Assembly: GCF_013004105.1 (NCBI RefSeq)
Contig: NZ_CP053085.1
Coordinates: 124,001 to 188,000 of the forward strand
DNA length: 64,000 nt
Reading direction: 5' to 3'
Source of the DNA: Gemmatimonas groenlandica
GTDB lineage: Bacteria > Gemmatimonadota > Gemmatimonadetes > Gemmatimonadales > Gemmatimonadaceae
How positions within the stretch are numbered: the first letter of the stretch is position 1; every line of letters starts with the position of its first letter. Shown in pieces: positions 57,328-64,000 of the stretch. The position numbers and the translations under genes were made by a program. The notes under the pieces are model-generated. The model was not told the origin of the DNA, ran no database searches, and saw only the letters and a program-made list of their open reading frames with translations.

Positions 57328-57400
57328 TGCCCCTTAGCTCAATTGGCAGAGCGTCTGACTCTGACTCAGAAGGTTCTAGGTTCGATTCCTAGAGGGGCAA
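57328..57400 (+). tRNA. tRNA-Gln (anticodon CTG)
   Basis: 73-base cloverleaf. Acceptor TGCCCCT/AGGGGCA with the T1-A72 pair typical of tRNA-Gln; D arm GCTC/GAGC; anticodon stem TCTGA/TCAGA, loop CTCTGAC (anticodon CTG, codon CAG); T arm CTAGG TTCGATT CCTAG. Discriminator A at 57400; CCA not encoded. A TATATT at 57285-57290 may be its -10. Confidence 0.96.
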
Positions 57401-59834: not shown

Positions 59835-61601
59835 GTGACCATCACTCCGACGTTGGCTTCGCCCAAGATTCTCACCGGCATCCGGGGGTTCGACGAAATC
59901 ACCCGAGGCGGTCTTCCGCGCGGTCGGACGACGCTGATCATGGGAGGAGCGGGCAGCGGCAAGACGGTGTTCGCCCTACAGTCGCTGGTAAACGGCGTGC
60001 GCGAGTCGAACGAATCGGCAATCTTCGTCGCGTTCGAGGAAAGCGTCGCCCAGATCATCAGCAACGCGTCGGCGTTTGGCTGGGACCTGCCGCGACTCGC
60101 CAGGAAACGGCTGCAGTTCTTCGACGCGCGCCTCTCGCCGGAGATCGTGAAGACGGGTGAGTTCGACCTCATCGGCATGCTCGCCATCCTCGAATCGATC
60201 GCGCAAAAAAGCAACGCGCAGCGGATCGTCTTCGACGGCTTGGACGTGCTCCTCGGTCTGCTCGACGATCCCGTGGCCGCGCGCCGCGAGATCTATCGCA
60301 TACGCGATTGGCTCGCCCGTACCGGTCTCACGGGCATCATCACGCAGAAGGCGCGCCCCGCGGCCGTCGATCACAGTGACAGCGATCTGCAGTTCATTGT
60401 CGATTGCGTGGTCATCGTCCGACATCAGGTGGTCGAAGGTTCGGCCTTCCGCAATCTTCGGGTGATGAAGTATCGCGGCTCGGGATTCGCTGGTGACGAA
60501 TTTCCGATTACGCTCACGACCGCCGGGCTTCAACTCACCAATCGTGGTCCGGTCGAGCTCCGCTACGACGTGTCCGACGAGCGGGTGTCCACGGGCTTGC
60601 CGCGACTCGATCACATGTTGCGTGGCGGCTATCACCGCGGCAGCAACATCCTGATCTCGGGGGCGCCCGGAACGGCCAAGTCCACGCTAGCCGGACTGTT
60701 CACGGCGGCCGCCTGTGAACGCGGCGAGCGGACGATGTATGTGAGCTTCGACGAGGGGGCAGCGCAGATCGTACGCAACTTGCAGTCCGTAGCGATTCAG
60801 TTGACGCCGTATCTGCGCTCCGGGCTGCTCAAGATGTACTCCACCCGCACACGCGGACCGAATGTCGAAGATCAGTTCGGTGAGCTTCGCGCCATGGTGC
60901 GGCTGCACAATCCGCGCTGTCTGGTCATCGATCCGTTGTCGGCGCTTTCCAGCAAGCTCGCGCACATCGCGTCCGCCGATGCCGCGCAACAGTTTCTCGA
61001 CTTTCTCAAGGTTGAGGGGATCACCGTCGTCAACACGTCGTTACTCGACGGGGTCAACACCGATGAAGCCACCGCGACCGGGATCTCCACGCTCGCCGAT
61101 ACATGGATTCACATGTCGTATCTGGTCCAGGACGGTGAACGCAATCGCGCCTTGACCATCGTGAAGTCTCGCGGCACGGGCCATTCGAACCAGGTGCGAG
61201 AACTCACCCTCACGGATAACGGGGTCACGCTGACCGACGTCTTCGTGGCGCACGGCAAGGTGTTGATGGGCGTCGCGCGCTGGCAGTGGGAACAGGAAGG
61301 CATTGCCGCAAGACAGCGCAACGAAGTCGCGTCGGAGCTCAAGCGGCTGCAGTTGCAGCTGAAACAGGCAGAAGCGGCGGCTCGCTTGCAGGTGGTGCAA
61401 ACGGAGATGGAAGCACGAAGCGCGGAGATCGCACTGTTGGCGCGCACGATGGGCGAGGCGTCCGACCTGCTCGATACGGACCGCACCGCCCTGCTCGAGA
61501 TGCGACATGCCGACGCCGAGGCGATGGTCACGGGGCCTCGCGCACGACCGGCAACGGGGCCGACCGCTCGGCGCAAGTCCATCAGCCGCAAGGCGCCGTA
61601 G
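59835..61601 (+). CDS. kaiC: KaiC-family double-ATPase
   Basis: 588 residues, two RecA-type domains. CI (about 5-235): Walker A 'GGAGSGKT', Glu68-Glu69 in 'VAFEESVAQI'. CII (about 245-480): Walker A 'GAPGTAKST', Asp306-Glu307 in 'SFDEGAAQI', so the first catalytic Glu is Asp. The site equivalent to cyanobacterial T426/S431/T432 reads 'TATGIST' (413-419), with Ser418-Thr419 kept. Residues about 485-550 form a predicted coiled coil beyond the usual KaiC end. GTG 59835 is chosen (AAGGA 10 bases upstream). Functions as a clock-like or stress ATPase/autokinase in other bacteria; here inferred. Confidence 0.9.
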   Translation: MTITPTLASPKILTGIRGFDEITRGGLPRGRTTLIMGGAGSGKTVFALQSLVNGVRESNESAIFVAFEESVAQIISNASAFGWDLPRLARKRLQFFDARLSPEIVKTGEFDLIGMLAILESIAQKSNAQRIVFDGLDVLLGLLDDPVAARREIYRIRDWLARTGLTGIITQKARPAAVDHSDSDLQFIVDCVVIVRHQVVEGSAFRNLRVMKYRGSGFAGDEFPITLTTAGLQLTNRGPVELRYDVSDERVSTGLPRLDHMLRGGYHRGSNILISGAPGTAKSTLAGLFTAAACERGERTMYVSFDEGAAQIVRNLQSVAIQLTPYLRSGLLKMYSTRTRGPNVEDQFGELRAMVRLHNPRCLVIDPLSALSSKLAHIASADAAQQFLDFLKVEGITVVNTSLLDGVNTDEATATGISTLADTWIHMSYLVQDGERNRALTIVKSRGTGHSNQVRELTLTDNGVTLTDVFVAHGKVLMGVARWQWEQEGIAARQRNEVASELKRLQLQLKQAEAAARLQVVQTEMEARSAEIALLARTMGEASDLLDTDRTALLEMRHADAEAMVTGPRARPATGPTARRKSISRKAP

Positions 61602-61602
61602 C

Positions 61603-61908
61603 ATGCCGAGAATCAGTGCTAAGTCCGCCTTGATGCGGCTCCGACTGTACATCGCTGGCAGCGCGCCGAACTCCGTGCGGGCCGTGGTCAACGCGAGGGC
61701 GATCTGCGAGCAGCACTTCCCCAGCGCGTATGAACTCGAGGTGGTGGATCTGCTCGACTCTCCCGAGCGGGCCTTGGCCGACGGCATTATCGTCACGCCG
61801 ACGTTGCTGAAGTTGGCACCACGACCAACGCAACGCATCATCGGCAACCTCAGTGACACCGAACAGGTCCTGATGGCCCTCGTCGGCACCGATCGGCGCC
61901 ATGAATAA
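61603..61908 (+). CDS. kaiB: KaiB homologue
   Basis: 101 residues. 'LRLYIAGSAPNSVRAVVNAR' and 'YELEVVDLLDSPERALADGI' then 'VTPTLLKLAPRPTQRIIGNL' and 'SDTEQVLMAL' follow cyanobacterial KaiB closely, including the fold-switching region. Binds KaiC in cyanobacteria. ATG 61603 lies one base after the kaiC stop, and its end overlaps the kinase gene by 8 bases. Confidence 0.9.
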   Translation: MPRISAKSALMRLRLYIAGSAPNSVRAVVNARAICEQHFPSAYELEVVDLLDSPERALADGIIVTPTLLKLAPRPTQRIIGNLSDTEQVLMALVGTDRRHE

Positions 61909-63619
61909 CGGACGCACGCTCAGGCGCCGGCTCGCCGAGGCCGATGCGACGATCGCCGCTCTCGTTTCCGGCGAGATCGACGCCGTGGTCGACAGTCGCA
62001 GTCGCTCGCCAGTGCTGCTCGCGATGGCGCAACAGGCGCTGCGGGAGAGCGAGGCCCGGTACCGCAGCATCGTCGAGACATCGAACGAGGGGATCTTCAC
62101 GGTGGCGCTGGACGCCACGCTGACGTTCGCCAACCGACGAATCGCGGACCTGCTCGGATATACGCCCGCTGACTTGATTGGACGATCGTTACTCGAGCTG
62201 CTGCCGGCGCACGCGTACGAACGCGCCATGCTGCGTATCAGTAGTCTGGATCACGATGTCGATGGGGCGAGCGAAGTCACCATCCTCAAGAAGGACGGCA
62301 CCGAGCTGCATGTCGAGTTGAAGTCCAGCGTCGTGCGGGATGAGCACGGGAAACATGTTGGCATGCTGGCCATGATGACAGATCGGACCCGAAGGCGGCA
62401 GGCCGAAGAGGCGTTGCGCAAGATCGAAGCACAATTGATCGTCAGCGATCGCATGGCGTCGGTCGGCACGCTGGCTGCGGGGGTGGCGCACGAGATCAAC
62501 AACCCGCTGGCTGCGGTGACGGCAAACTTGGCGTTCATCGCGGAGCACTGCCGTTGCGGTGGTGCGCTCTCGCCGACTGCCGATGGCTGCGAGGTCAGTG
62601 GGCAGCCCAGTATGCAGGATGCGATCAAGGATGCCCGCGAGGCGGCTGAACGCGTGCGGATCATCGTGCGTGACCTGATGATCTTCTCTCGCGCGCGGCC
62701 GGACGAGCTGATCGGAGCGGTCGACGTGCATCGTGTCTTGGATTCGACGGTTCGTATGGCATGGAACGAAATCCGGCACCGCGCGCAGCTCGTCCGCAAC
62801 TATGGTTCGGTGCCACTGGTCAGCGCCAGCGAGGCTCGACTCGGTCAAGTGATGCTCAACTTGCTGGTCAACGCGGCGCAGGCGCTTCCCGAAGGACACG
62901 CGGAACACCATGCGATCAGCCTCTCGACGTGGTTTGACCGTGACCGGCAGCGGGTCATGGTCGAAATACGTGACACCGGCGTTGGGATCTCGCCGGAACA
63001 CATCAACCGTATCTTCGACCCCTTTTTCACCACCAAAGACGTCGGCCTCGGCACCGGTCTGGGACTCGCCATTTGCCAGCGGATCGTCACCGATCTCGAT
63101 GGCGAGTTGACCGTACGAAGCGAGCTGGGGACGGGAACGACGTTCTCCGTTTCCCTGCCGATCGCAACGATGCCGTCGGTCGTTAAACCGCTTCCCGTTC
63201 CGGCCAACGAACGCGGGGCTCGCGCGCGCATCCTGATTGTCGACGACGAGGAGCTCATCGTGCGCAGCCTAGTGCGAACGCTCGGGGGAGAGCACGACGT
63301 CGTTGGCGTGACCGCCGCACGAGAGGCGCTGGCGTTGCTCGAAGCAGGCGATCGGTTCGACGTCATTCTCTGCGACATCATGATGCCCGAGATGACGGGG
63401 GTCGACCTGTACGGTGAGCTGATGCGCATGGCGCCAGACCAGGCGCATCGCATGATGTTTCTGACGGGGGGCGCGTTCACGCCCAGCACGCAAGCGTTTC
63501 TCGCGGAATCGAGCAACCTGCAGCTCGAGAAGCCGTACGCGCCAATCCAGCTTCGTGACGCCGTGCAACTCGTGCTTCGCGATGGACGCTCGCCTGCGAA
63601 TCCGTCGCCCGAGTGCTAG
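61901..63619 (+). CDS. PAS-histidine kinase-receiver hybrid protein
   Basis: 572 residues. Short N-terminal helix with 'LVSGEIDAVVD', PAS domain (about 51-165, 'NEGIFTVALDATLTFANRRI'), HisKA with His197 in 'GVAHEINNPLA', HATPase (N box 'LLVNAAQAL', 'DTGVGIS', 'GLGTGLGL') and a C-terminal receiver (about 445-560) with Asp492 in 'LCDIMMPEMTG' and Lys in 'LEKPYAP'. No membrane helix, so it is cytoplasmic. Overlap with kaiB argues that it is the output or input partner of KaiB/KaiC. No cognate response regulator is adjacent. Confidence 0.92.
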   Translation: MNNGRTLRRRLAEADATIAALVSGEIDAVVDSRSRSPVLLAMAQQALRESEARYRSIVETSNEGIFTVALDATLTFANRRIADLLGYTPADLIGRSLLELLPAHAYERAMLRISSLDHDVDGASEVTILKKDGTELHVELKSSVVRDEHGKHVGMLAMMTDRTRRRQAEEALRKIEAQLIVSDRMASVGTLAAGVAHEINNPLAAVTANLAFIAEHCRCGGALSPTADGCEVSGQPSMQDAIKDAREAAERVRIIVRDLMIFSRARPDELIGAVDVHRVLDSTVRMAWNEIRHRAQLVRNYGSVPLVSASEARLGQVMLNLLVNAAQALPEGHAEHHAISLSTWFDRDRQRVMVEIRDTGVGISPEHINRIFDPFFTTKDVGLGTGLGLAICQRIVTDLDGELTVRSELGTGTTFSVSLPIATMPSVVKPLPVPANERGARARILIVDDEELIVRSLVRTLGGEHDVVGVTAAREALALLEAGDRFDVILCDIMMPEMTGVDLYGELMRMAPDQAHRMMFLTGGAFTPSTQAFLAESSNLQLEKPYAPIQLRDAVQLVLRDGRSPANPSPEC

Positions 63620-63903: not shown

Positions 63904-64000
63904 GATCCCTCTCGGCATGACCGGCGTCTTCTCGGCCGGCGCGCGATGGCGACGATCGGCCAACGCCAACTCGCGCTCCACACGCAGCGACTGGATCGCG

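Follow-up and report, generated by a model that had tools for sequence, protein, structure and literature searches.

The nearest solved relative of the protein described here is the KaiC of R. sphaeroides, which operates without KaiA and has a C-terminal tail that joins two hexamers into a dodecamer (PMC10076222; PDB 8DBA, 8FWI, 8FWJ). Deletion of the coil leaves autophosphorylation and nucleotide exchange approximately unchanged. However, dephosphorylation nearly stops, and the coil is thus needed for the fast rate (PMC10076222). The KaiA independence of this protein has been credited to an extended, exposed A-loop, and Trp419 is a proposed lever that moves the phosphoserine towards catalysis by pressing it into the active site (PMC10076222). 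In the phosphomimetic state the C-terminal residues touch the CII domain of the opposite hexamer.

The KaiC proteins of S. elongatus and T. elongatus share the two-domain fold but carry a short KaiA-binding tail, and the kinase is KaiA-dependent. In the S. elongatus protein, Glu318 of CII activates the acceptor hydroxyl and Glu319 helps to bind a magnesium ion; phosphoryl transfer is lost in E318A, and neither E318A nor E318D is rhythmic in vivo (PMC2777353). A third group, comprising R. palustris KaiC and the KaiC2 proteins, has a longer C-terminus and kaiBC without KaiA, and is described with catalytic Glu-Glu pairs and two serine acceptors (PMC4794148, PMC5520375).

A kaiC-kaiB-hybrid kinase locus in G. 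groenlandica

We analyzed a stretch of 64,000 nucleotides from G. groenlandica (the window), which contains a kaiC gene followed by kaiB and a hybrid kinase gene. The features are:

59835..61601, + strand: kaiC, 588 amino acids, GTG start (matches to PF06745, NF006799 and PDB)
59946..59966, + strand: normal CI Walker A, GAGSGKT
60036..60041, + strand: normal CI catalytic pair Glu68-Glu69, reading A-F-E68-E69
60660..60683, + strand: CII Walker A, GAPGTAKS, with Ala281 (60675-60677) in place of the glycine before the catalytic Lys
60750..60755, + strand: CII pair Asp306-Glu307, reading S-F-D306-E307, with the Asp codon GAC at 60750-60752
61086..61091, + strand: Ser418-Thr419, the putative phospho-acceptor pair, at the positions of S431-T432 and of R. 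sphaeroides S413-S414
61104..61106, + strand: Trp424, at the position of R. sphaeroides Trp419, which has been proposed as a lever in dephosphorylation
61269..61502, + strand: C-terminal helix (residues 479-556), a homologue of the coil through which R. sphaeroides KaiC forms its dodecamer
61503..61598, + strand: basic end, residues 557-588, predicted to be disordered
61603..61908, + strand: kaiB (Pfam KaiB PF07689, E 3.2e-22)
61901..63619, + strand: hybrid kinase, PAS-HisKA-HATPase-receiver (domain search)

The GTG start codon (59835), counted as residue 1 throughout, is preceded on its 5' side by GAAGGA. The product contains two KaiC ATPase domains within one chain, as identified by Pfam KaiC PF06745 (E 3.1e-84, two stretches) and by NCBIfam NF006799, for which the score of 470.5 bits lies above the cut-off of 408. 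The score against the cyanobacterial KaiC model TIGR02655 is below its cut-off (286.9 versus 546.25 bits). By alignment, Asp306-Glu307 corresponds to E318-E319 of S. elongatus and to E302-E303 of R. sphaeroides KaiC. A preliminary description of this DNA had contrasted the Glu68-Glu69 pair of CI with Asp306-Glu307 of CII, and direct reading of the sequence confirms both. Because CII lacks the Glu-Glu pair, we class the protein as a KaiC variant rather than a canonical KaiC.

The start of the hybrid kinase gene overlaps the end of kaiB, which encodes the single KaiB detectable in the genome (one contig, 5.18 Mb). The same description assumed a system without KaiA. Consistent with this, we found no detectable match to KaiA in the genome, and the identical search is positive in S. 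elongatus. The genome also encodes a second, distant KaiC-family protein (L002, G000:C1:4903869-4905290) that is 28% identical, has Glu-Glu in CII and lacks the long tail.

Much of this arrangement, namely the tail and the operon, is already known. The protein resembles R. sphaeroides KaiC in its two KaiC domains, in a helix of similar length that aligns into the coil, in the conserved Trp419 position, in the gene order with an adjacent kaiB and a histidine kinase, and in the lack of KaiA. However, the two proteins are ~37% identical, and in R. sphaeroides KaiC the CII pair is Glu-Glu, the Walker A is normal and the acceptors are Ser-Ser, where the G. groenlandica protein has Asp-Glu, an alanine in the CII Walker A and Ser-Thr acceptors. 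The Ser-Thr pair is shared with the cyanobacterial proteins and sets the protein apart from the KaiC2 group with its two serines.

The CII active site across KaiC relatives

We collected relatives from genome contigs, from about 2000 sampled genomes and from plasmids. Among 138 aligned KaiC proteins, the first residue of the CII pair is Asp in 38 and Asn in two, 96 have Glu-Glu, and single proteins have Lys and Gln; since the survey was picked by similarity to the query, the share of Asp should not be read as an unbiased frequency. In all 40 Asp/Asn proteins, Ala or Ser stands in place of the final Walker A glycine of CII, typically giving GAPGTAK[ST], and this glycine is kept in all 98 others. 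Two of the 40 appear short-tailed only through a cut contig or a cut or shifted reading frame.

In a tree of 72 sequences from which the Walker A and pair columns had been removed, the difference between Asp and Glu requires one change, and the Asp proteins form a group of 35 (SH-aLRT 99). A tree of the CI domain alone again requires one change, with a support of 84; both are quick trees calculated without bootstrap. Within this survey, Asp does not occur outside this one clade. A wide occurrence of Asp among active KaiC proteins, which had been named as an observation that would weaken the idea of an altered CII, was thus not seen. Slower or altered CII chemistry is plausible, given that E318 is catalytic and E318D arrhythmic in S. 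elongatus. In one distant KaiC-like protein, L075, the CII sequence is Phe-Asp-Glu and the Walker A glycine is normal. Beyond the KaiC group covered by the survey, Asp may therefore have had more than one origin.

Residues were counted in the 35 full-length members of the clade using T. elongatus KaiC numbering. K294, D378, K457 and R459 are present in every member, and position 295 is always Thr or Ser. The E318 site is occupied by Asp in 34 members and Asn in one, and the E319 site by Glu in 27 and Ser in eight. Ser431 is found in 34 members (Ala in the other), Thr432 in 30 (two Ala and one Asn among the rest), and position 426 is Thr or Ser in 34. The Glu-Glu pair of CI is kept in 35 of 35. 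The clade has thus retained the nucleotide-binding and acceptor residues, with an altered base and P-loop. Judged on the alignment, the aspartate at position 306 is more than chance, since it is fixed in the clade, and this fixation rules out a random point mutation or a sequencing error. The decay of CII into a dead domain is likewise unsupported in view of the conserved ATP-binding and acceptor residues, although a loss of catalysis alone could still have occurred.

The eight proteins with an Asp-Ser pair form one subclade (L013, L015, L016, L017, L021, L031, L088 and L098; support 99 in the 72-sequence tree). No catalytic glutamate is left in their CII domains. The first acceptor serine is present in all eight.

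In the searchable open-access literature, which is an incomplete set, we found no description of an Asp-type CII clade with the Walker A change, and nothing relevant to KaiC in Gemmatimonadota. A search of the same literature for biochemistry of any member of the clade also found none. Sequences from the clade may already be present in the tree of PMC10076222, with the aspartate unremarked.

The C-terminal helix and a proposed timing mechanism

The C-terminal helix occupies the position where the KaiA-binding tail would be. Given a 39-sequence alignment, from which four rows from plasmid records were left out, AlphaFold2 predicts for the monomer one continuous helix across residues 479-556 (block pLDDT 79-94 to about residue 540), followed by a disordered basic tail at residues 557-588 (pLDDT mostly <50). 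The helix in place of the KaiA-binding tail and the basic end proposed in the preliminary description are thus both borne out by the prediction, but the helix is ~78 rather than ~65 residues long. A phmmer search of PDB returned R. sphaeroides KaiC as the top match (8dba, E 3.7e-107), with an alignment that spans CII, enters the coiled coil and ends at residue 544 of the query (P0001). Foldseek searches with the predicted model also ranked the dodecameric R. sphaeroides structures first. For the two domains alone, VIA-align gives a slightly higher Z to cyanobacterial KaiC; its alignments to 8dba, 8fwi and 8fwj reach into the C-terminal helix.

All 35 full-length members of the Asp clade have the long tail, a known feature already solved in Rhodobacter, and the tree places them apart from the tailed Glu-Glu proteins. 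The position of Trp419 is Trp in 35 of 35 Asp-clade and 14 of 14 tailed Glu-Glu proteins, and Ile in most untailed proteins; Tyr436 of the Trp419 network in R. sphaeroides is replaced by Thr or Ser in the Asp clade. A conserved R-x-A-D-like motif closes most tails just before the variable end (34/35 in the Asp clade, 12/14 in the tailed Glu-Glu proteins). By analogy with the R. sphaeroides C-terminal residues that touch the opposite CII, this motif may be a docking site. Heptad and Fourier hydrophobic periodicity were not significant for most tails. Periodicity does not by itself prove a coiled coil, and we dropped it as a test because the solved R. sphaeroides coil fails it too, and it therefore does not discriminate. 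From the coil-deletion results in R. sphaeroides, the main role expected of the tail would be in dephosphorylation and assembly.

What we propose for catalysis, oligomeric state and output is inferred beyond the sequence and the predicted structure. On balance, we lean towards a KaiA-less timer of KaiC, KaiB and hybrid kinase in which a rebuilt, probably slower Asp-based CII would still phosphorylate and dephosphorylate itself. CI would be an ordinary KaiB-binding ATPase ring, working as in R. sphaeroides KaiC, and by homology the helix following an extended A-loop would pair two hexamers tail to tail. CII would still bind ATP and bear the Ser-Thr acceptor pair, with Asp for Glu as the general base and a P-loop without its last glycine, and self-phosphorylation and dephosphorylation would persist with altered, probably slower chemistry. 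The coil would act mainly on dephosphorylation via Trp424, and KaiB and the hybrid kinase would read the state of KaiC. This proposal draws on R. sphaeroides KaiC as the nearest solved relative, the single origin of the clade-wide aspartate and the linked Walker A change. It also draws on the conserved ATP-binding and acceptor residues, the CI Glu-Glu pair and the tryptophan, on the downstream kaiB (present in most members) and lack of detectable KaiA, and on the effect of the R. sphaeroides coil on dephosphorylation. Counting against it are the arrhythmic E318D mutant of S. elongatus, the eight members without a second glutamate, the Ala or Asn at an acceptor site in a few members, and the lack of significant periodicity in the tail.

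In the main alternative, CII would not transfer phosphoryl groups at all and would be a nucleotide-sensing, structural ring, with timing or energy sensing residing in CI hydrolysis and KaiB binding alone and the coil only holding the assembly together. The clade-fixed Asp base, the lost P-loop glycine and the second glutamate missing from the subclade would all fit, as would the effects of E318A on phosphoryl transfer and of E318D on rhythm (PMC2777353); in R. sphaeroides, moreover, KaiB binding depends on the post-hydrolysis state of CI and only marginally on phosphorylation. However, the acceptor serine is retained in 34 of 35 members, including every Asp-Ser protein, the phosphate-binding residues are invariant, and Asp is itself a possible base. 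We regard a CII of this kind as possible but rather unlikely. Similarly tentative is the wider proposal that the whole clade, with record titles from five phyla, would lack a glutamate-based CII autokinase, CII being Asp-based and either very slow or non-phosphorylating, and that these systems would keep or sense time by means of the coil, KaiB and hydrolysis in CI.

It is improbable, in our estimate, that the aspartate is neutral, with the Walker A and other CII changes compensating so exactly that rates equal those of Glu-type KaiC. The two substitutions are paired without exception, and some short-tailed KaiC proteins have Ala at that P-loop position in CI with intact glutamates, so that Ala is evidently tolerated at this site. 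However, both changes fall on one branch, where shared descent alone predicts the pairing, and the E318D result (PMC2777353) also speaks against neutrality. The earlier suggestion that CII kinase activity is set by the coil itself, or that the coil docks the hybrid kinase, seems very improbable and needs amending, because the R. sphaeroides coil is dispensable for autophosphorylation and nucleotide exchange and is occupied by the opposite hexamer, even though the operons of tailed KaiC proteins often include a histidine kinase gene and the R-x-A-D-like motif is conserved in most tails.

Whether KaiC timers need glutamate-catalyzed phosphorylation in CII is a question for KaiA-less systems. The fixed natural state of the Asp clade is the exact substitution that abolishes rhythm in S. 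elongatus, and it comes with an exceptionless P-loop change and with the acceptor residues retained. With many natural proteins and a subclade without both glutamates, the clade offers a direct test of the need for CII catalysis. If its members do lack a glutamate-based CII autokinase, KaiBC timing or sensing would proceed without the canonical phosphorylation chemistry.

Distribution and genomic context

The gene order of the genus (glnS followed by tRNA-Gln, 57328-57400) breaks off exactly after the tRNA, and the remainder of the window to position 64000 has no match to the 15 kb following the tRNA in two relatives. At E <= 1e-60, the G. groenlandica KaiC has no match in at least 27 further genomes of the genus. 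Together, these observations suggest that the segment after the tRNA was acquired. In a search for an integration-site repeat, the 3' end of tRNA-Gln did not recur within 25 kb.

By record title, members of the Asp clade come from Gemmatimonadota, Myxococcales, Anaerolineae, Armatimonadetes and Proteobacteria, although metagenome-assembled genomes may carry wrong titles; isolates include Falsiroseomonas, Arhodomonas and Rhodovibrio. Four proteins titled Myxococcales (L004, L005, L006 and L010) are ~75% similar to the G. groenlandica KaiC, equal to KaiC of its own family, which suggests either horizontal transfer or mislabelled metagenome bins. In most members kaiB lies 3' of kaiC, often with an adjacent histidine kinase as in R. 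sphaeroides; it was not seen in the short flanks of L026, L102, L103 and L104. A tandem pair of kaiB genes stands beside a Glu-Glu type KaiC in L055, L056, L062, L078, L079, L091 and L101.
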